Assembly: GCF_004087915.1 (NCBI RefSeq)
Contig: NZ_CP035108.1
Location: forward strand, 248,001-312,000
Direction: 5' to 3'
DNA length: 64,000 bases
Origin: Geovibrio thiophilus
GTDB taxonomy: Bacteria > Chrysiogenota > Deferribacteres > Deferribacterales > Geovibrionaceae
The notes under the pieces were generated by a model, which ran no database searches, was not told the DNA's origin, and saw only the letters and a program-made list of their open reading frames with translations. The translations under genes and the position numbers were made by a program. Position 1 is the first letter of the stretch, and each line of letters begins with the position of its first letter. This document shows positions 17,764-56,937 of the stretch, in pieces.

Positions 17764-19125
17764 ATGAAAATTCTCGCTCTTATCCTCGCTGCGGGCAAGG
17801 GAACCCGCATGAAATCCTCCAAGCCCAAAGTTCTTTTTGAATCGGCAGGAAAACCGATGATAGATTATGTCATAAACGCTGCCTCCTCCTGCGGGGCGGA
17901 TGCCGTGAATATTGTAATAGGCAGCGGCGCGGAGGATGTTAAGTCCCATATCGGGGGGAGAGCCTCCTTCAGTCTTCAGGAAAACCAGCGCGGAACAGCG
18001 GACGCTGTGCTGGCGGCTGAGAACGCAATACAGAACCACGGCGGGCGTGTGCTGATCCTCTGCGGGGATATGCCCCTTGTCAGACCTGAAACCCTTTCCA
18101 AGTTTATCGAAGCAGCCGGAAACCATGCCGTGAGCTTTATCAGTGTCAGCGTAAAAAAACCTTTCGGATACGGGCGTGTGGTCAGGGGAGGCGGCGGCTC
18201 TGTCATTAAGATAGTCGAAGAGAAGGACGCAAACGATCAGGAAAAAAAGATAAATGAAGTAAATACCGGAATATATTTCTGCGACTCCGCCGTTCTGCTG
18301 GACAGGCTCTCCCGTGTGGGCAGCAATAACGCCCAGAACGAGTTCTATCTCACTGATATAGTTAAAGAAGGCGCCTTCGCGTACAAGGCGGAGGATGAGA
18401 ACGAATTTTTAGGCGTGAACAACCGTGTTCAGCTTGCGGAAGCTTCCAAGGCTCTCTGGAAGCGCAGGGCGGTAAGATTCATGGAACAGGGGGTCAGCAT
18501 TTTCGATCCCGATACGTTTTATGCGGATGAGGAAACAGAAATAGAAAACGATGCAGAGATATATCCCAATGTTTATCTTCACGGGAAAAATATAATAAAA
18601 ACCGGAAGCGTAATAATGTCCGGCTGCCGCATAACTGATTCGGTGATCGGTGAGAACTGCGAAATCAAGGACAACTGCTGTATAACCGAAAGTAAAGTCG
18701 GCGCCGGCAGCTCGGTGGGTCCCATGGCGCAGCTCCGCCCGGGCACAGTGCTTGAGGGGAAGAACAAGATCGGCAATTTTGTGGAAACAAAGAAGGCTGT
18801 TCTCGGTTCCGGCAGTAAGGCAAGCCACCTTACTTATCTCGGAGACGCCGAGATAGGCAAAGATGTAAACATAGGCTGCGGTACAATTACCTGTAATTAT
18901 GACGGGATAAAGAAGTATAAGACTGTCATAGAAGACGGTGTTTTTGTGGGGAGCGATGTTCAGCTTGTGGCTCCGGTGAAGATCGGCAAAGGCGCACTTC
19001 TGGCGGCGGGTTCCACCATTACAAAGGATGTGCCCGCAGACGCTCTCGCTATGACAAGGGCGGATATGAAGATAAAGGAAGGCTGGGTCTCCCGCTGGAA
19101 AAGTACAAAGAAGAAAGATAAATAG
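17764..19125 (+). CDS. glmU: Bifunctional UDP-N-acetylglucosamine pyrophosphorylase / glucosamine-1-phosphate acetyltransferase
   Basis: 453 residues, full length. The N-terminal nucleotidyltransferase has LILAAGKGTRMKSSKPK and NVVIGSGA-type strands. The C-terminal half is a left-handed beta-helix of hexapeptide repeats with IGNFVETKKA and the CGTITCNYDG active-site segment. It makes UDP-GlcNAc for peptidoglycan and LPS, and probably feeds the glycan island downstream. The partner enzyme gene glmS follows after a repeat array. Confidence 0.97.
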   Translation: MKILALILAAGKGTRMKSSKPKVLFESAGKPMIDYVINAASSCGADAVNIVIGSGAEDVKSHIGGRASFSLQENQRGTADAVLAAENAIQNHGGRVLILCGDMPLVRPETLSKFIEAAGNHAVSFISVSVKKPFGYGRVVRGGGGSVIKIVEEKDANDQEKKINEVNTGIYFCDSAVLLDRLSRVGSNNAQNEFYLTDIVKEGAFAYKAEDENEFLGVNNRVQLAEASKALWKRRAVRFMEQGVSIFDPDTFYADEETEIENDAEIYPNVYLHGKNIIKTGSVIMSGCRITDSVIGENCEIKDNCCITESKVGAGSSVGPMAQLRPGTVLEGKNKIGNFVETKKAVLGSGSKASHLTYLGDAEIGKDVNIGCGTITCNYDGIKKYKTVIEDGVFVGSDVQLVAPVKIGKGALLAAGSTITKDVPADALAMTRADMKIKEGWVSRWKSTKKKDK

Positions 19126-19145: not shown

Positions 19146-19757
19146 GATGTGCCGACGCCGTGCGCAGCGAAGCCGTTTTTTAAACGGCGCGAGCGTGTAT
19201 CAGAATCTGACAGGATGTTGCGGGTTCAGATTATTAAGGAAGAGGCACAGGATGTGCCGACGCCGTGCGCAGCGAAGCCGTTTTTTAAACGGCGCGAGCG
19301 TGTATCAGAATCTGACAGGATGTTGCGGGTTCAGATTATTGAGGAAGAGGCACAGGATGTGCCGACGCCGTGCGCAGCGAAGCCGTTTTTTAAACGGCGC
19401 GAGCGTGTATCAGAATCTGACAGGATGTTGCGGGTTCAGATTATTGCGGAAGAGGCACAGGATGTGCCGACGCCGTGCGCAGCGAAGCCGTTTTTAAACG
19501 GCGCGAGCGTGTATCAGAATCTGACAGAATGTTGCGGGTTCAGATTATTGCGGAAGAGGCACAGGATGTGCCGACGCCGTGCGCAGCGAAGCCGTTTTTA
19601 AACGGCGCGAGCGTGTATCAGAATCTGACAGGATGTTGCGGGTTCAGATTATTGCGGAAGAGGCACAGGATGTGCCGACGCCGTGCGCAGCGAAGCCGTT
19701 TTTTAAACGGCGCGAGCGTGTATCAGAATCTGACAGGATGTACAGATTCTGATTATT
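19146..19757. repeat. Tandem repeat array 2: 105/104-bp units, five full copies plus a divergent final copy, between glmU and glmS
   Basis: Units start at 19146, 19251, 19356, 19461, 19565 and 19669. The two 104-bp units have one T fewer in the central T-run. Read on the minus strand, each copy holds ACACGCTCGCG, a hairpin CCGTTT/AAACGG, CTTCGCTGCGCACGGCGT and a second hairpin GGCACA-TCC-TGTGCC, the same plan as arrays 1 and 3. A further pair AATCTGA/TCAGATT lies beside it. The last copy changes sequence so that ATCAGAATCTG and CAGATTCTGAT form an 11-bp perfect stem near 19729-19755. The 105-nt unit keeps frames open, but the 104-nt copies break them, so coding is unlikely. Confidence 0.95.
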
Positions 19758-47803: not shown

Positions 47804-50188
47804 ATGGCAGATAAATCGATTTTTAACATAAAAAAACTGAGACAACCCTTCAGCAGCAGTGATCTTCGTGCGCCTGCCGCTATAGTTTCCTTAATGGAGA
47901 AGCACTTCGGGAATAAAAAGGTCAGGATACTTGAGATAGGCGTTTTTAAGGCAGGCCTGACCAAGGTATTTGCTGAATCATCCCTTAATATTGAAGCTTA
48001 CGATGGTGTTGACCCGTATCTTGGCTCTAAGGATGATCCTTATACCGGCTTGTACTGGGGAAATTCTTTAGAGGCCGGGTCGGTATATAAAAAAGCAAAA
48101 GAATACTACGATAACCAAGGATTCAGCCTTCATAGAATGACTTCTTCCGAGTATTTTGACAATTTTTTTGGCAAAAAGGAATATGATATTATTTATGTCG
48201 ATGGGGATCATCGGTTTGAGTATGCGCTTCAGAATTTTGGAGAGTTTGTATATATGCTCTCGGAAGGCGGAATTCTCCTCATGGATGACTATGCAAATGT
48301 TGGAACGCCGGAAGTTACAAAAGCAGTAAATGAGTTCATCCACAGTTACAGAGATGTTATCGCAAGTATAGGCTATTATCTAAACGAGTTTCAGAATCCG
48401 GGCAAATATGTTCCGGTGTCACAAACGACAGTTTACTTAACTGTAAACAAAAATCTCCTTGAATCACAGAAACCCATAAGCTCCAAGCGCTATTATCTAT
48501 CATCTTTTTTCAGGGATTTAACAGAGAATAAAGGCATCAGGCGATTGGCGATATTCGGTGCCGGAAGGCACACGGAATGGCTGGATAGACTCATGACATC
48601 ATCACTGAGACCGGATATCGTCGCGGTTCTGGATGACAATCCTGACGAAACAAAAATGTTTTTCGGGAAAAAAACCATGAAGGCGGAGCTTTTCAACCCT
48701 TCAGACGCTGATGCGCTTCTGCTTTCAACAGATGTAAACCAAGCAGTATTCAGGGAAAGATGCATCAGTCTTTACGGTGATGCACTGCCGCTGTTAAATT
48801 TATACGACGATTTCCCTCTGCCTCAGAAGAAACCTAAGCACCATTGGGTGGAATACAGCGGTGAGAAAAATACTTCCCCCGCTTTGCCCGCCCTGACAGA
48901 TTCATGCTCGGAAAGGATCATGTGGGCAGGTTTTTACAACAGATCATCAGATAAGAATATATTTATGGAATCTGTTATAAATCATTCTAAATCATCGCAT
49001 TACTTATTACTCAACTTAGCATTAAATTTTCCGGATATAGCCTTACCCAATGCTTTTGTATTTAATGCGCCTGAAGCTGTGATAAAGTGTACTGAGCGAA
49101 GCTCAACTGTAAATCTTCCTGAAAACAGGAATATCAGGTATACTCTTGAAACCTATGCTGTACATCTTAAATATACACTCGAAGAGAACCACGACATCAG
49201 TTATGAACAGGCGCTTTCCGCTGTCGGACAAATGTACAGCTATGCGCTTAATATGCTGGAAAGCTATAAACCTGATATAGCAGTTATATGGAATGAGTTT
49301 CATCCTCTCTTCAAAGTAGCGAAACTAGCCTGTGATTTTACCGGTACAAAAACTGTCTATATGGAATTTGGCTGCCTGCCCGGAACTTTTCAATTTGATA
49401 TTAAGGGGCAGATGGGGGAAAGCTGGATAGCCCTTAACACTGAGGCTTTCAACAGCCTGCATGTAGATGAGGCTGACTGCATAAAAGCAGTTAAGGCTAT
49501 TGAATGTATAAAGAACACTGAAATGAACCGTGCGAAGCAGCCAAAAAGAGGTAGGCTCGGCAGGATGCTTGAAGGGATAGACAAAAAAATAGTTTTTGTC
49601 GCTGGTCATAATGATTACAGTTCCGGAATGTTCCCTTATGACATAGCTGCGTCCACGTTCCATTCCCCTTTTTACAGCAGTTCAGCCCATCTGTTTGAAG
49701 ATATGGCGCAAAGAGCGGATTTGAACGGATGGTTCATGGTATTTAAGCCTCATCCTTATGCCAAAAGTTACCTGCCTGAGTTACTCAGGACTGAGCATTA
49801 CATCATAGTTGATGATGTAAATGTGGAAGAATGTATTGATATTGCAGATGTCACGTTGACTGTTCTGTCGCAGATATCATATATGGCGTTGACCAGAGGG
49901 AAGCCTGTGGTTATGACAGGTTATAACCAGCTTAGGGATAAGGGCTGCTGTTACGAGGCATTCAGGACTGAAGATATTAACAGTGCCATTAACAGCGCCC
50001 TGATATACGGTTTTACAGATTTAATGAAGGAAAACTGGATAAAACATGCGGCGAGACTTCTGAAGTATTGCCTGTACTCTGATAATGAAGCATTATATGC
50101 TCTGCCCTCTGAAATATTTGCGAAGAGAATTCAGGCTCTTGCCCGACATAAAATGACCGATATTGAAATCATTAAACAAGAAATATAA
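47804..50188 (+). CDS. Three-domain protein: methyltransferase, FGAGRHTEW module, capsule-type GT-B region
   Basis: 794 residues. Residues 1-220 are a class I methyltransferase (KVRILEIGVFKAGLTKVFAE; YDIIYVDGDHRFEYAL; ILLMDDYAN), near-identical in plan to the protein at 50274. Residues ~245-345 are the shared module (IFGAGRHTEWLDRL, VAVLDDNPDETKMFFG, PLLNLYDD). Residues ~370-790 resemble KpsC/KpsS-like capsule glycosyltransferases: MVFKPHPYAKSYLPELL and DVTLTVLSQISYMALTRGKPV. GGAG precedes the ATG. The protein probably couples sugar methylation and transfer. Confidence 0.78.
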   Translation: MADKSIFNIKKLRQPFSSSDLRAPAAIVSLMEKHFGNKKVRILEIGVFKAGLTKVFAESSLNIEAYDGVDPYLGSKDDPYTGLYWGNSLEAGSVYKKAKEYYDNQGFSLHRMTSSEYFDNFFGKKEYDIIYVDGDHRFEYALQNFGEFVYMLSEGGILLMDDYANVGTPEVTKAVNEFIHSYRDVIASIGYYLNEFQNPGKYVPVSQTTVYLTVNKNLLESQKPISSKRYYLSSFFRDLTENKGIRRLAIFGAGRHTEWLDRLMTSSLRPDIVAVLDDNPDETKMFFGKKTMKAELFNPSDADALLLSTDVNQAVFRERCISLYGDALPLLNLYDDFPLPQKKPKHHWVEYSGEKNTSPALPALTDSCSERIMWAGFYNRSSDKNIFMESVINHSKSSHYLLLNLALNFPDIALPNAFVFNAPEAVIKCTERSSTVNLPENRNIRYTLETYAVHLKYTLEENHDISYEQALSAVGQMYSYALNMLESYKPDIAVIWNEFHPLFKVAKLACDFTGTKTVYMEFGCLPGTFQFDIKGQMGESWIALNTEAFNSLHVDEADCIKAVKAIECIKNTEMNRAKQPKRGRLGRMLEGIDKKIVFVAGHNDYSSGMFPYDIAASTFHSPFYSSSAHLFEDMAQRADLNGWFMVFKPHPYAKSYLPELLRTEHYIIVDDVNVEECIDIADVTLTVLSQISYMALTRGKPVVMTGYNQLRDKGCCYEAFRTEDINSAINSALIYGFTDLMKENWIKHAARLLKYCLYSDNEALYALPSEIFAKRIQALARHKMTDIEIIKQEI

Positions 50189-51329: not shown

Positions 51330-52034
51330 ATGACTGGTGATAAAGCTTGTAAGGAGGGCGGCTTCTGCCCCGTATGCGATTCGTGCGTAAGCGAGTGGTT
51401 GCCGCTGAACCGTCTTGTAGGCGATGGAGTTTACCGAAAAGAGCCGGAAGGAAGACTTTGTCCTGTGTGCGCCTCTTTTGAGCGAACACGCCACTTCTGG
51501 ATGTATATAGAGAAGGCAGAGATACTCAAAGAAAATACACGTATGCTCCATGTCGCTCCTGAAAAGGGACTTGAGGCGAAGCTGCGCCCCATGCTGGGGA
51601 AAAACTATATAACAGCTGACCTGCTTAAGAAGAATGTGGATTATAACGTTGACTTGACGGATCTTCCCTTTGCGGACAATTCTTTCGATTTTATCTACTG
51701 CAGCAATGTCTTGGAGCATATTCACAATGATGCCAAGGCTATGAGTGAGCTTTACAGGGTTCTGGAGGAAGGCGGAATGGCGTATATTCATGTTCCTATA
51801 GATGGGGTGGTCACGCAGTACGACCCCTCTATCACATCGCCGGAGGAACGGATGAGGCTTTACGGTCAGGCTCAACATGTGCGCATGTACGGAAGGGATA
51901 TTTCTGTTTCTCTCACAAGAGCCGGCTTCAAGGTGGAGGAGCTTATAATGCCCGATTTTCTGGACATAGATGCGGATTTGCAGAGATACTACAACTGCGC
52001 CAAGCGTGAAATGGTTCATTTCTGCTATAAATAA
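51330..52034 (+). CDS. Class I methyltransferase with N-terminal zinc-ribbon-like segment
   Basis: 234 residues. Two CPVC pairs (GFCPVCDSC and RLCPVCASFERTRHFW) near the N-terminus suggest a zinc ribbon. The methyltransferase_11 core follows: MLHVAPEKGLEAKL, LPFADNSFDFIYCSNVLEHI, LYRVLEEGGMAYIHVP. This type is common in surface-polysaccharide clusters. GAGGTG lies before the ATG. Confidence 0.85.
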   Translation: MTGDKACKEGGFCPVCDSCVSEWLPLNRLVGDGVYRKEPEGRLCPVCASFERTRHFWMYIEKAEILKENTRMLHVAPEKGLEAKLRPMLGKNYITADLLKKNVDYNVDLTDLPFADNSFDFIYCSNVLEHIHNDAKAMSELYRVLEEGGMAYIHVPIDGVVTQYDPSITSPEERMRLYGQAQHVRMYGRDISVSLTRAGFKVEELIMPDFLDIDADLQRYYNCAKREMVHFCYK

Positions 52035-52054: not shown

Positions 52055-52651
52055 ATGAACAGAAACTACGCAGAAAGCTATATAAAAAAACTGACCGCCC
52101 TTCTGGAAAATACTGATACGGAAGCGGTTAACAGAATAATTGAACTCCTTGAAGAGCTCGACCCCTTTGAAAACACCGTCTATTTCATGGGCAACGGCGG
52201 GAGCGCCGCCACAGCTTCTCATTTTGCAACGGATCTAGGCGTGGGGCTGAAGCTCAGGGGCATAAAAAATTTCAGCGTCATCTGCCTTTCCGATAATATT
52301 CCGGCGGTTACGGCTATTTCAAATGATGTGGGCTACGACAACATATTCTACGCCCAGCTAAAAAACCGCCTTAAAAAAGGAGATGTGCTGGTAGCCATCT
52401 CCGCCAGCGGCAATTCCCCGAACATAGTAAAGGCAGCCGAATACGCCAAAAAGACCGGGACAAGAATAATAGGCTGCACAGGGTTTGACGGCGGAAAGCT
52501 CAGAGAACTCTCCGACATAAATTTTCACGTACAGACTGAAAAAGGCGAATACGGGCTTGTGGAAGACATGCACATGATACTCGATCATATAATTTATTCC
52601 TACTTTGTGGCAACAAAGGAAGGGGCATCCACAAAGTATACTCTGGAGTAG
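52055..52651 (+). CDS. gmhA: SIS-domain phosphosugar isomerase, GmhA-like
   Basis: 198 residues. YFMGNGGSAATASHFATDL and ISASGNSPNIVKA are the GmhA SIS signatures, with the C-terminal EDMHMILDHII. GmhA makes D-glycero-D-manno-heptose-7-phosphate from sedoheptulose-7-phosphate. Here it begins a tightly packed set of sugar-nucleotide genes, so it may provide a heptose or similar phosphosugar for the island. AAGGAG precedes the ATG. Confidence 0.83.
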   Translation: MNRNYAESYIKKLTALLENTDTEAVNRIIELLEELDPFENTVYFMGNGGSAATASHFATDLGVGLKLRGIKNFSVICLSDNIPAVTAISNDVGYDNIFYAQLKNRLKKGDVLVAISASGNSPNIVKAAEYAKKTGTRIIGCTGFDGGKLRELSDINFHVQTEKGEYGLVEDMHMILDHIIYSYFVATKEGASTKYTLE

Positions 52652-52653
52652 TG

Positions 52654-53661
52654 ATGATAAAAGCGGGCATGGCAGGATTCGGCAAAATGGGCAGAATAAG
52701 GGCGGCTGAGATAGCGAAAAGTCCGGTGATAAACCTCACCGCCGTTTATGATATAGATAAAAATATTCTCCCGGCGGACGTGCACATCTGTGATAATTTC
52801 GATCGCCTGCTGGAGCAGGATATAGACTCGGTTTTCATCTGCACCTACAATAACGTGACAGCGGAATACACCAAAAAGGCGCTGCTTGCCGGAAAGCATG
52901 TTTTCTGCGAAAAACCTCCGGCGACAACCTATTCTGAACTGAAAGAGGTGGAGGAGGTTGCGAAAAGCTCCGGTCTCGTGCTGAAATACGGATTTAACCA
53001 CCGTTTTCACTATTCTGTCATAAAAGCGAAGGAGATCATAGATTCCGGCAGCTACGGGCGGATTCTCTGGATGCGCGGTGTTTACGGCAAGGCGGGCAGC
53101 ATAGACTATGACAAAAACTGGCGCAACTACCGCAAATACAGCGGCGGCGGAATCCTCATAGATCAGGGCATACACATGCTTGACTTGATGCTTCACTTCG
53201 CCGGCGAGCCGTTCACGAGGATAAACAGCTTTGTCACCAGCCTTTACTGGAAGGTGGAGGCGGAGGACAACGCATTTGCCATAATGCAGACCGATAAAAA
53301 CGTAACAGCCATGCTCCACTCCTCTGCCACTCAGTGGCGGCATAAGTTCCTGCTTGAGATATGTCTTGAGGACGGTTTTGTGAATCTGGACGGTATTCTC
53401 TCCGCAACACGCAGCTATGCGCCCGAAAAGCTTGTCACCGGACGCAGGGAGTTTGAGGATGTCACCTTCGCCATGGGCAAGCCCAAAGAGGAGACCACAT
53501 GGTTTGAGTATGACGATTCGTGGAAGCTTGAACTTGAGGACTTTATAAGCGCAGTCACGGAGAGTGCTCCCCTTAAGCACGGCAGCATAGACGAGGCGCT
53601 GGGCGTTATGGAACTTGTGGACAGGATATACAGAAACTCAGGTGTATGTGATGCCCACTGA
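52654..53661 (+). CDS. Gfo/Idh/MocA-family sugar oxidoreductase
   Basis: 335 residues. Rossmann motif AGFGKMGRIRA, then VFCEKPPATTYSELKE with the family EKP Lys, and the GGGILIDQGIHMLDLMLHF motif with the catalytic His. These NAD(P)-dependent enzymes oxidise or reduce sugar carbons. GGAG precedes ATG 52654; a GTG one codon earlier is also possible. It overlaps the next gene by 11 nt. Confidence 0.88.
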   Translation: MIKAGMAGFGKMGRIRAAEIAKSPVINLTAVYDIDKNILPADVHICDNFDRLLEQDIDSVFICTYNNVTAEYTKKALLAGKHVFCEKPPATTYSELKEVEEVAKSSGLVLKYGFNHRFHYSVIKAKEIIDSGSYGRILWMRGVYGKAGSIDYDKNWRNYRKYSGGGILIDQGIHMLDLMLHFAGEPFTRINSFVTSLYWKVEAEDNAFAIMQTDKNVTAMLHSSATQWRHKFLLEICLEDGFVNLDGILSATRSYAPEKLVTGRREFEDVTFAMGKPKEETTWFEYDDSWKLELEDFISAVTESAPLKHGSIDEALGVMELVDRIYRNSGVCDAH

Positions 53662-54580
53662 GATAGGCGTTACAACTGTAGCTTTCAGCAAAAATGATTT
53701 CCTCCGCAGAAAAGCGGAGGAGATGTCCGGCGGGGTTATATTCAACCCATTCGGACGCAGACTGACATTTGATGAACTGACAGAGATTTACAGAGACTGT
53801 ACGGCGCTGATCGTCGGTCTGGATAAAATAAACGAAAAAACTCTTGCCGCCCTGCCGAAGCTTAAGGCAGTCGCCAAGTACGGCGTGGGGCTTGATAATA
53901 TAGACCTTGCCGCATGCGCGGAACACGGCGTACGGGTTTTCGGAGCGGAGGGCGTAAACAGGCGTTCCGTGGCGGAGCTTGTGCTGGGGTTCATGCTGGG
54001 GCATATGCGCAATATTTTTGCCTCATCCTTGAGAATGCGCGGCGGAGATTGGGTAAAAAACGGCGGGTGTGAGCTCTCCGGCAAAACAGTGGGGATGATA
54101 GGCACGGGGAACATCGGGCGTGAAGTCGTGATGCTGCTTAAGCCTTTCGGGTGCAGGATTCTCTGCAATGACATACTCCCGATTGATGACTTCTGCGCGG
54201 CAAACGGCGCGCAGCCAGCCTCAAAGAAGGAGATTTTCCGCAATGCTGACATAATAACCCTCCATGTGCCGCTGACGGCGGAAACAGAGCATATGATAAA
54301 CGAGCAGGCATTGCGGCTTATGAAGCCGTATGCCCTTTTGATAAACACTTCCCGCGGCGGCGTGGTTGACACGGATGCGGTGAAGACAGCGTTAAAGGAA
54401 AAACGCCTCGGCGGAGCCTGTTTTGATGTTTACGATACAGAGCCGTTTTATGATGAGGAGCTCTGCGGGATGGAAAACGTGGTCTGCACGCCGCACATAG
54501 GCGGCAACTCCGAAGAGGCTGTGAGGGCAATGGGCGAAGCGGCGCTGAGAGCTCTCCTGAACTGGTGCAGAGGTGTTTGA
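53651..54580 (+). CDS. D-isomer-specific 2-hydroxyacid dehydrogenase (SerA-like)
   Basis: 309 residues. Catalytic-domain start followed by KYGVGLDNIDLAACAEHGV, the NAD loop GMIGTGNIGREVVML, the Arg in INTSRGGVVD, Glu in YDTEPF and the HIGG His. It lacks the C-terminal ACT domain of full SerA. In this context it may oxidise a sugar-acid intermediate rather than 3-phosphoglycerate. AGGTG before ATG 53651. Confidence 0.85.
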   Translation: MPTEIGVTTVAFSKNDFLRRKAEEMSGGVIFNPFGRRLTFDELTEIYRDCTALIVGLDKINEKTLAALPKLKAVAKYGVGLDNIDLAACAEHGVRVFGAEGVNRRSVAELVLGFMLGHMRNIFASSLRMRGGDWVKNGGCELSGKTVGMIGTGNIGREVVMLLKPFGCRILCNDILPIDDFCAANGAQPASKKEIFRNADIITLHVPLTAETEHMINEQALRLMKPYALLINTSRGGVVDTDAVKTALKEKRLGGACFDVYDTEPFYDEELCGMENVVCTPHIGGNSEEAVRAMGEAALRALLNWCRGV

Positions 54581-55301
54581 CGAAAGGCGCGCCGGAAGCT
54601 TCATACGGAGCGCAGGCAGGGAAGCTCTGGCGGCGGGCAGCGAATGTCTGTCAGATTCGGGCAGGGATATAAAGCTTAAGGCGGATATGGAGCTACATGA
54701 AAAGCTGAGCCTGTTCCTTACGGACTTTACAGGGCTTTCTGTTCTCTCAGAAGAGGGGGAACAGCCGGATTATACATCGGTGCAGGGCTCATTCTGGATA
54801 CTCGATCCGCTGGACGGATCATATAATTTTCACAGAGGGCTGCCCCATGCGGCTGTTTCCGTTTCCCTGTGGAAAGGCGGTGCGCCGCAGGTATCGTATG
54901 TGTATGACATTTTCAGGGACACACTGTATTATGCCGGAACAGGCGGCGGATGCTTCGCAGACGGCGGGAAGATACATTGCAGTGATGCTGATTCTGCCTG
55001 TCAAGCCGCTGTCGCTTCAGGATTCTCTGTGTATAGAGATTATTCCGATGAAGAAATGCTGAAAGACATAGCGTTCTTGAGGCGGTTTAAAAAGATAAGG
55101 TTCATAGGCAGTGCGGCGCTTTCTCTAGCTTATGTGGCGGAAGGTAGGCTGGACGCTTATTTTGAAACAGATATAGGCATATGGGACGTGGCGGCGGGGC
55201 TCGGTCTGGTGAAAGCTGCCGGAGGAACCTACAGGCTTGAGAAAGGCAGCGCCCCGAACAAAGTCACGGTTTTAGCCCACAACGGAAGGCTTGGTTTATG
55301 A
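54573..55301 (+). CDS. Inositol-monophosphatase-like phosphatase
   Basis: 242 residues from GTG 54573. The IMPase metal motifs are present: VLSEEGE, WILDPLDGSYNF and DIGIWDVAAGLGLV. The family dephosphorylates sugar or inositol phosphates. It overlaps its neighbours by 8 and 4 nt, so it is part of the same pathway. It may remove a phosphate before activation by the cytidylyltransferase. Confidence 0.87.
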   Translation: MFDERRAGSFIRSAGREALAAGSECLSDSGRDIKLKADMELHEKLSLFLTDFTGLSVLSEEGEQPDYTSVQGSFWILDPLDGSYNFHRGLPHAAVSVSLWKGGAPQVSYVYDIFRDTLYYAGTGGGCFADGGKIHCSDADSACQAAVASGFSVYRDYSDEEMLKDIAFLRRFKKIRFIGSAALSLAYVAEGRLDAYFETDIGIWDVAAGLGLVKAAGGTYRLEKGSAPNKVTVLAHNGRLGL

Positions 55302-55969
55302 AAGTAATCTGCATGATACCCGCCAGACTCGGGAGCCAGAGGCTGAGACAGAAAAACCTCCGCACAATAAACGGTGTGCCGCTGTTTGCCCTTGCGGTAC
55401 GCAAGGCTCTTGCCGCAGGAGTATTTGATGAGGTGTGGGCAAATACGGAGAGTGATGAACTCGGCAGACTTGCCTTAAGCGAAGGAGCACTGTTCCACAA
55501 AAGACCGGAGAAGCTGGCGGACAACGCCGCCACCAGCGAGGACTTTGTTTACGAATTTCTCACTCACCATCAGTGTGATTACGTTGTGCAGCTTCATTCC
55601 ATAGCGCCGCTTCTCTCCGCTGGGGAAATAAACGGATTCACACAGTTTCTCGCTGAAAGCGGCTGCGATACACTGCTGAGTGTTGAGGAAATAATTCTGG
55701 AATGCCTGTTTGACGGCAGTCCGGTTAATTTTACATTTGATAGAAAGGAAAACTCGCAGGATCTCAAGCCTGTTTCAAAGATAGCGTGGAGCATAACGGG
55801 CTGGAAACGTGAAACATATATAAAAGCATACGAAAGCGGAGGCTGCGGAACCTATTCCGGCGTCGTGAAAAGCTTTCCGCTGCAAAAATACTCCGCTCAC
55901 GTGATAAAAACGGAAGAAGATTTAATGATTGCCGAAACACTGTACTCTCTTCACAGAGGGCAGACATGA
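55298..55969 (+). CDS. Acylneuraminate/KDO-type cytidylyltransferase
   Basis: 223 residues. N-terminal CTP-binding motif IPARLGSQRLRQKNLR, as in CMP-sialic acid synthetases, with VVQLHSIAPLLSAGEI. It would make a CMP-sugar. No NeuB, KdsA or other 9- or 8-carbon sugar synthase gene is in the window. ATGA overlaps on both sides. Confidence 0.85.
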   Translation: MKVICMIPARLGSQRLRQKNLRTINGVPLFALAVRKALAAGVFDEVWANTESDELGRLALSEGALFHKRPEKLADNAATSEDFVYEFLTHHQCDYVVQLHSIAPLLSAGEINGFTQFLAESGCDTLLSVEEIILECLFDGSPVNFTFDRKENSQDLKPVSKIAWSITGWKRETYIKAYESGGCGTYSGVVKSFPLQKYSAHVIKTEEDLMIAETLYSLHRGQT

Positions 55970-56937
55970 CCGAGTACGCAGTTTTCGGAACAGGAAGAGC
56001 CGCGGAAAACGCACTCCGCTGGGCAGATGAGGCGGGGTATCCCATCGCCTGCATAGTTGACGATTTTGCGGAAGGGGAGTTCAGGGGATTCAAAATCATA
56101 GGCTGGGCGGAGTTCCTTAAAACTCAGAACCGTTTCGCCGCACTGATCACCGGACGCGGGCAGAAGGGTAATATCCATAACCGCTCGGGAGTGTTTATTC
56201 CAGTGATCACCGCGTCACAGCTTATGCCCGAAGGCTTTGACCCCGCAAGGAATACTGCCGGACTCCTCTCGCTAAAAGATAAACACAAAGGGGAAAGATG
56301 CTTCATAATAGGTAACGGACCAAGCCTTACTGCTGAGGCTCTTGGTATGCTCAAAGATGAAGTATGCTTTGCTTCCAATAAAATATATCTCATATATGAG
56401 CAGACAAAGTGGCGCCCCGCTTACTACTTTGTTGAGGATTATCTCGTGGCGGAGAACTGCCGTGATGTGATAAACTCATTAAAATGCAGTAAGTTTTTTG
56501 AATACGGAGTGCTGGAAAAGCTCAGGACGGACGAGGATACCTTTGCTTACGGCTATGCGGACATGCTTTTTTCCTGTGATGTGGTTCACGGCGTTGCCGG
56601 CGGATACAGCGTTACGGCTTCCCAGCTTCAATTCGCCAAATACATGGGATTTAAGAAAGTTTACTTTATAGGCATGGATTTCTGCTTCACTGTGCCGGAG
56701 GGGAGCACAGGAGCAGTGATAGAGAGCGCGGGTGAACGCAACCACTTTCATCCGGACTACCGCAAAAAAGGGGAGAAATGGACTTTCCCCGAGCTGGAAA
56801 AGCAGAAAGCATTTTTTGACTATGTGAGAGAGAACATAACAGGCGGCGATTTCAGGGTTTACAACGCTTCGGAGAGGACAATGCTTGACTCCTTCCCGAA
56901 GGTTTCCCTCAGGGCGCTGCTGAAGGATATAAAATGA
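55966..56937 (+). CDS. DUF115 motility-accessory-factor-like protein with N-terminal nucleotide-binding-like domain
   Basis: 323 residues. Residues 1-65 (EYAVFGTGRAAENALRW, ACIVDDFAEGEFRGFKI) look like a divergent copy of the FGAGRHTEW module. Residues ~105-310 are DUF115: GERCFIIGNGPSLTAEAL, CFASNKIYLIYE, and VYFIGMDFCF. MAF proteins are thought to move nonulosonic acids from CMP carriers onto flagellin. Position next to the cytidylyltransferase agrees with a transferase role; this is inference. Confidence 0.8.
   Translation: MTEYAVFGTGRAAENALRWADEAGYPIACIVDDFAEGEFRGFKIIGWAEFLKTQNRFAALITGRGQKGNIHNRSGVFIPVITASQLMPEGFDPARNTAGLLSLKDKHKGERCFIIGNGPSLTAEALGMLKDEVCFASNKIYLIYEQTKWRPAYYFVEDYLVAENCRDVINSLKCSKFFEYGVLEKLRTDEDTFAYGYADMLFSCDVVHGVAGGYSVTASQLQFAKYMGFKKVYFIGMDFCFTVPEGSTGAVIESAGERNHFHPDYRKKGEKWTFPELEKQKAFFDYVRENITGGDFRVYNASERTMLDSFPKVSLRALLKDIK

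Follow-up and report, generated by a model that had tools for sequence, protein, structure and literature searches.

Gene run and family assignment

The window analyzed here is a 64,000-nucleotide stretch of the Geovibrio thiophilus genome (NZ_CP035108.1, positions 248,001 to 312,000). Its positions 52055-56937 on the plus strand hold six co-directional genes with successive overlaps of 1-11 bases, which we examined as a candidate pathway to a sugar activated with cytidine monophosphate (CMP). A preliminary description had reported this tightly overlapping set, and all six genes were recovered at the same positions, with their families assigned by Pfam (Table 1). As read from the alignment, the dehydrogenase gene probably starts at ATG 53651; the longest open reading frame (ORF) opens at TTG 53615. 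A scan for promoters and terminators was uninformative, giving 25 promoter-like sites where 23 were expected.

None of the six proteins reached an NCBIfam equivalog cut-off. The isomerase scored 113 bits with the gmhA model (cut-off 209) and the dehydrogenase 216 bits with the PGDH model (cut-off 454). The cytidylyltransferase scored 78 bits against the 206 of the PseF equivalog, which leaves it outside the NeuA/PseF family, and 24-42 bits with the kdsB models, whose cut-offs are 155 or more, so that it is no KdsB equivalog either.

Table 1. Genes of the run and two upstream neighbors, with the evidence for each assignment
Feature	Position	Strand	Evidence
GmhA-like SIS-domain phosphosugar isomerase, distinct from GmhA	52055..52651	+	SIS_2 E=8e-23
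Gfo/Idh/MocA sugar oxidoreductase	52651..53661	+	Pfam GFO_IDH_MocA 2e-19, its C3 domain 3e-25
D-2-hydroxyacid dehydrogenase, SerA-like	53651..54580	+	2-Hacid_dh_C 1e-54
Inositol monophosphatase (IMPase)-type sugar phosphatase	54573..55301	+	Inositol_P 2e-41
Cytidylyltransferase, NeuB-independent clade	55298..55969	+	CTP_transf_3 9e-20, tree position
DUF115/Maf-like putative CMP-sugar transferase, N-terminal Rossmann-like domain	55966..56937	+	MptE-like/DUF115 5e-12, predicted fold
Methyltransferase + KpsC/TarL-like glycosyltransferase, second candidate transferase	47804..50188	+	C-terminal half 33% identical to L046/L048 neighbors
S-adenosylmethionine (SAM) methyltransferase, Cys-rich N-terminus, adjoins isomerase; accessory	51330..52034	+	weak similarity 1e-6 to L051 counterpart

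The catalytic motifs are largely intact. The window isomerase keeps the phosphate-binding SxSGxS loop (ISASGNS) and the catalytic His180 of GmhA; this histidine is missing in the homologue from Sinorhizobium fredii (locus L048). In the alignment, the Gfo/Idh enzyme retains the motifs EKPP and DQGIHMLD (patterns EKP and DxGxHxxD), and the catalytic Arg, Glu and His of the SerA-like dehydrogenase are present in all members compared (SRG, EP and TPH motifs). The phosphatase has the EE, DPLDG(S/T) and WD motifs of the metal site, and the CTP-transferase motif of the cytidylyltransferase is also intact. Members of the SIS, Gfo/Idh and SerA families were compared by pairwise identity; a tree was built for the cytidylyltransferase alone.

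A cytidylyltransferase clade separate from NeuB-linked enzymes

A maximum-likelihood tree was computed for 74 cytidylyltransferases, with two long-branch rows left out. The branch that divides 38 sequences from 32 NeuB-linked relatives had 100/100 support. The clade of 38 consists of the window protein, those of L011, L046-L048 and L033, one from genome G007 and 31 viral sequences. The separation was first seen as a score difference with a hidden Markov model (HMM) trained on module members, and the tree is an independent check of it.

No clade member has NeuB in its locus (0/38). NeuB INDEPENDENCE was found in none of the 8 bacterial and 31 viral loci that carry module genes or clade cytidylyltransferases, and in all 4 control loci. 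For the viral contigs, a single search detected NeuB in 0/31 clade loci and 37/45 others (Fisher 3e-14, a value that overstates independence since several contigs are near-copies). The recurrence of a unit lacking NeuB and KdsA supports the preliminary description, as does the distinct clade of its cytidylyltransferase.

Recurrence in other bacteria

The five enzymes occur together, in three different orders, in Paenibacillus cellulosilyticus (L046), Leisingera aquaemixtae (L047) and S. fredii (L048). These were exactly the three matches obtained when 72,556 plasmid records were searched by tblastn with the cytidylyltransferase as the only query. Since the five-enzyme combination reappears in unrelated bacteria with its genes reordered, the set is, on sequence grounds, one that is kept as a set, and not merely a single inherited block or a chance assembly.

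The species-genome collection contained one relative of the cytidylyltransferase, at 62% identity, in a Desulfonauticus metagenome-assembled genome (MAG; L011). Here the SIS, Gfo/Idh, SerA-like, cytidylyltransferase and DUF115 genes follow the window order, i.e., four of the five enzymes plus the DUF115 protein. No NeuB was detected anywhere in this genome (a 2.1 Mb MAG, completeness not stated). Identity of the Gfo/Idh enzyme to that of the window was 71% in L011, 69% in L033, 43% in L046 and 42% in both L047 and L048. The IMPase-type phosphatase is also present in L035, L046, L047 and L048. Within the genus, one of the two relatives searched (G002) has the set at 90-96% identity; its island contains an extra inserted radical-SAM-like gene (L035:11896-13128).

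Single enzymes also turn up in other surroundings. In G010 (L181:4938-9273), an SIS protein 59% identical to that of the window lies near a HAD-like gene, a gene for a sugar nucleotidyltransferase-like protein and a pair of genes that reads as transketolase-like; Gfo and SerA homologues are absent from this locus, and the isomerase is thus reused in another context. Distant Gfo relatives were found in clusters with SIS, a HAD-IIIA (GmhB-like) phosphatase, transaldolase, a GHMP kinase and a nucleotidyltransferase.

NeuB, KdsA and KdsB elsewhere in the genome

The preliminary description had stated that neither NeuB nor KdsA is present. This holds for the cluster and not for the genome (one contig, 2,997,552 bases), in which a profile search found a single NeuB (300 bits, C1:2745320), a KdsA-like protein (C1:2924708) and a KdsB-type CTP transferase (C1:1345614). 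The surroundings of NeuB at 2.745 Mb can be read as pseB, pseI, a transferase, pseG, pseF and pseC, together with a Maf protein and flagellins. In this region NeuB and the cytidylyltransferase were tested by HMM and the Maf/DUF115 domain was tested as well; the remaining names come from reading the genes. The NeuB gene thus appears to sit in a complete-looking pseudaminic-acid operon with its own cytidylyltransferase.

The window enzyme is therefore a third, extra cytidylyltransferase of this genome, beside those of the pse operon and of KdsB type; a fourth match is a bifunctional GlmU-type gene (window position 17764). Because neuB has its own cytidylyltransferase and kdsB exists, neither neuB nor kdsA completes the window set. 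A neuB gene elsewhere that supplies the step absent from the run, the finding that would have spoken against the preliminary description, did not emerge, the only neuB belonging to its own operon and the module also occurring in a genome with no detected NeuB. A link to flagellin was not established; the flagellin genes adjoin the pse operon instead.

An explanation built on this NeuB would be that the set decorates a standard nonulosonate pathway or diverts it, with the pse-operon NeuB acting in trans on a variant precursor made by the window enzymes. NeuB is indeed present in the window genome, G002, G007 and G049, and in Paenibacillus about 11 kb from the module. Each NeuB examined in context, however, belongs to a pse-type operon that has a cytidylyltransferase of its own, none was detected in the Desulfonauticus genome and the clade excludes NeuB-linked cytidylyltransferases, which makes this explanation very improbable.

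Cyclase variants and viral contigs

Two genomes carry a variant of the cluster. In G049 (L033) and G007 (L051), SIS and Gfo homologues (61-63% and 55-69% identical to those of the window, respectively) stand with a SerA-like enzyme, a short-chain dehydrogenase/reductase (SDR) and a 3-dehydroquinate (DHQ)-synthase-like protein, and IMPase is absent. The latter protein, additional to the housekeeping aroB, scores above the cut-off of TIGR04425, a model for an AroB-related putative cyclizing sugar phosphate phospholyase. Only these 2 of 385 genomes exceeded that cut-off, both among the four with a Gfo homologue above 50%, and the plasmid records gave no match. In both clusters the cyclase and SDR take the place of the phosphatase. 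DHQ synthase uses a 2-ulosonate phosphate as substrate and eliminates its phosphate, which may explain why a cyclase can replace the phosphatase in these sister clusters. Two irregularities were noted: in G049 an inserted AAA-ATPase gene (L033:6732-8330) separates the module's SIS gene from its Gfo/Idh gene, and the Gfo/Idh homologue of G007 (L051:9184-10190) has one in-frame TAG, indicating a pseudogene or an assembly error.

The majority of the clade (31/38) lies on viral contigs from IMG/VR (about 30 contigs, L097-L126 and L144); none was found in 50,697 isolate phage records. SIS and a class III aminotransferase each accompany 28 of the 31, and an SDR paired with a TIGR04425-like cyclase 15. 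The cytidylyltransferase is fused to a cupin in many of these contigs.

In phage contig L122 (6285-10305), a HAD phosphatase, a glyceraldehyde-3-phosphate dehydrogenase (GAPDH)-like enzyme, a fumarylacetoacetate-hydrolase-like protein and a SerA-type enzyme surround a clade cytidylyltransferase. This set may follow a similar logic with enzymes of other families, the GAPDH-type one as aldehyde oxidase. G007 has HAD, GAPDH, HpcH aldolase and SerA genes beside a cytidylyltransferase (L034:2873-6970) that is long-branch and was not assigned to the clade. The L122 and L034 sets represent another NeuB-free kit next to a cytidylyltransferase.

Proposed pathway

The best explanation, to which we assign a probability of about 0.5, is that the run encodes a pathway to a CMP-activated sugar acid without NeuB/KdsA-type phosphoenolpyruvate condensation, via the steps set out below. 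Its parts differ in strength. That the pathway to a CMP-sugar is independent of NeuB is quite likely, and an acidic sugar is probably made by an undescribed route. The double-oxidation chemistry in particular is more tentative, somewhat short of an even chance.

From the enzyme families, intact motifs, recurrence and separateness of the clade, all read directly from the sequences, we infer an order of steps, the oxidized carbons and a product. The SIS protein would interconvert a ketose phosphate and an aldose phosphate, and the Gfo/Idh enzyme, from a family that includes C1 aldose oxidases, would oxidize C1 to a lactone or acid. The SerA-like enzyme would convert the 2-hydroxy acid to a 2-keto acid, i.e., a 2-ulosonate phosphate. 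SerA-family enzymes rely on the conserved Arg to act on 2-hydroxy acids, so the pathway should include an acid that carries a 2-hydroxyl or 2-keto group. The IMPase-like enzyme would then take off the phosphate and the cytidylyltransferase would join CMP to the anomeric hydroxyl. Enzymes of the NeuA/KdsB fold normally attach CMP at a free anomeric hydroxyl that neighbors a carboxylate, and a phosphatase just before the cytidylyltransferase fits this requirement. Finally, the sugar could be transferred by the DUF115/Maf-like protein or by the KpsC/TarL-like protein encoded upstream.

Several observations weigh against this proposal. Glu65 and Gln172 of GmhA (E. coli numbering) are replaced by Asp and Glu in all module-member isomerases, whereas E. 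coli GmhA and the GmhA-type protein of the window genome itself retain both. Gfo/Idh relatives in the PDB oxidize C1, C3 or ring hydroxyls, so that C1 is a guess. No IMPase was found in the 14.6 kb of the Desulfonauticus cluster. Most phage clusters, with isomerase, aminotransferase and often cyclase, have neither Gfo nor SerA; clade members therefore need not share one substrate. NeuB is present elsewhere in each of the four related genomes searched and in two of the three plasmid records. The Paenibacillus NeuB lies within a seemingly full pse operon that has a cytidylyltransferase of its own, and that of the S. fredii plasmid lies about 0.6 Mb from the module. In G361, a related cytidylyltransferase lies on a 5.3 kb contig that lacks module genes.

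As the precursor, a C7 compound, sedoheptulose 7-phosphate, is a first guess at about even odds. Because the isomerase lacks Glu65 and Gln172 of GmhA, this substrate is not assured and a heptose is favored weakly; the heptose precursor of the preliminary description was thus not established. Altogether, that description stands in part: the recurring NeuB/KdsA-free unit, the distinct clade and the Maf-like fold were supported, and the heptose precursor, the product and the flagellin link were not.

Two other products were considered, and both seem unlikely. A CMP-linked cyclitol or hydroxy acid in place of a pyranose ulosonate would have the Gfo/Idh enzyme act as an inositol dehydrogenase, an activity found in its family, and the SerA-like enzyme as a reductase. 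The cyclase variants in G049, G007 and phages do imply carbocycles in sister clusters, but the window set and L046-L048 have a phosphatase only and no cyclase, and the usual preference of the NeuA/KdsB fold for an anomeric hydroxyl beside a carboxylate also argues against a cyclitol. Alternatively, the same double oxidation could give a CMP-ulosonate with a different number of carbons, a pentulosonate or hexulosonate. As the SIS active site differs from that of GmhA, its ketose phosphate may have a C5 or C6 chain; the heptose-like clusters that house distant Gfo relatives, and the transketolase-like pair near the G010 isomerase, are weak hints of C7 instead.

A wider form of the proposed sugar-acid pathway, toward which we lean slightly less than away from it, is that bacteria and marine phages share an undescribed class of CMP-sugar pathways. 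In this class, the new cytidylyltransferase clade would activate 2-ulosonic acids or carbocyclic relatives, built by interchangeable upstream kits through sugar-phosphate oxidation or cyclization, not phosphoenolpyruvate condensation.

Relation to known systems

To our knowledge, every characterized bacterial CMP-sugar route adds phosphoenolpyruvate by a NeuB/KdsA-type enzyme. The CMP-pseudaminic and CMP-legionaminic pathways (PseB-C-H-G-I-F, Leg) share their last two members, a CTP_transf_3 cytidylyltransferase and a Maf/DUF115 transferase, with the window set, but the latter lacks the NeuB/PseI condensation, the aminotransferase and the nonulosonic acid (NulO) hydrolase, and its cytidylyltransferase is in another clade. 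The CMP-KDO (3-deoxy-D-manno-oct-2-ulosonic acid) pathway (KdsD-KdsA-KdsC-KdsB) has an SIS isomerase, a phosphatase and a cytidylyltransferase in the same roles; in the window, two NAD-type oxidoreductases stand in the place of KdsA, and kdsA-like and kdsB genes are separate in the genome. The D,D-heptose pathway (GmhA, HddA, GmhB, HddC) shares an SIS-type isomerase, and distant Gfo/Idh homologues occur in such clusters, whereas the window set has no kinase or sugar-1-phosphate nucleotidyltransferase and its SIS protein lacks the GmhA residues.

The PdxB-type route offers a chemical parallel in that a sugar phosphate is oxidized at C1 (Epd, aldehyde) and then at C2 by a SerA/PdxB-family 2-hydroxyacid dehydrogenase. 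It leads, however, to pyridoxine without CMP activation, and its first enzyme is GAPDH-like, as in phage L122, while that of the window is Gfo/Idh. In G049 and G007 the TIGR04425 phospholyase accompanies homologues of SIS, Gfo and SerA, but it is absent from the window cluster, which has the phosphatase instead.

In open-licence literature we found no published description of the gene set, of heptulosonic acids with cytidylyltransferases or of the marine-phage clusters. A lead to bradyrhizose was followed and showed no link. CMP-activated acid sugars are usually recognized in genomes by the presence of NeuB. If the proposal is correct, one class of acidic surface sugars, some encoded by marine phages, escapes this marker, and the set names a few enzymes that are directly testable in vitro.

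Candidate transferases and neighboring genes

The AlphaFold model of the DUF115 protein (predicted local distance difference test, pLDDT, 75.6) had as its best PDB matches 5mu5, the Maf glycosyltransferase of Magnetospirillum, with Z 14.5 across 203 residues, and CMP-sialyltransferases (CstII, Z 11.5). This model supports the MAF-like nature claimed earlier and suggests a putative CMP-sugar transferase of Maf/sialyltransferase-like fold. For a Clostridium Maf, use of KDO and N-acetylneuraminic acid (Neu5Ac) as donors is reported (PMC11339370).

Relatives of the C-terminal half of the second candidate (47804-50188) adjoin the module in S. fredii and Paenibacillus. All four such proteins matched PF05159, one of them above the cut-off of 20 bits (S. 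fredii homologue 29.4, window 16.7), and a profile search with this half gave TarL at 1.5e-4 and KpsC at 0.07. By these similarities it could belong to a KpsC/TarL-like group with a CMP-ulosonate or CDP-alditol donor. The accessory methyltransferase at 51330-52034 has a weak relative in L051, a Cys-rich methyltransferase adjoining SIS; L046 and L047 in turn hold methyltransferases related to the L051 protein.

The run is part of a large glycan island (window 35493-61151) with DUF115 proteins, FkbM and other methyltransferases, GT2 enzymes, TPR proteins, radical SAM and DUF354. Outside this island, an ORF at 19149-19601 consists of near-identical 36-residue direct repeats (MPTPCAAKPFFKRRERVSESDRMLRVQII...) and is probably repeat DNA, not a gene.

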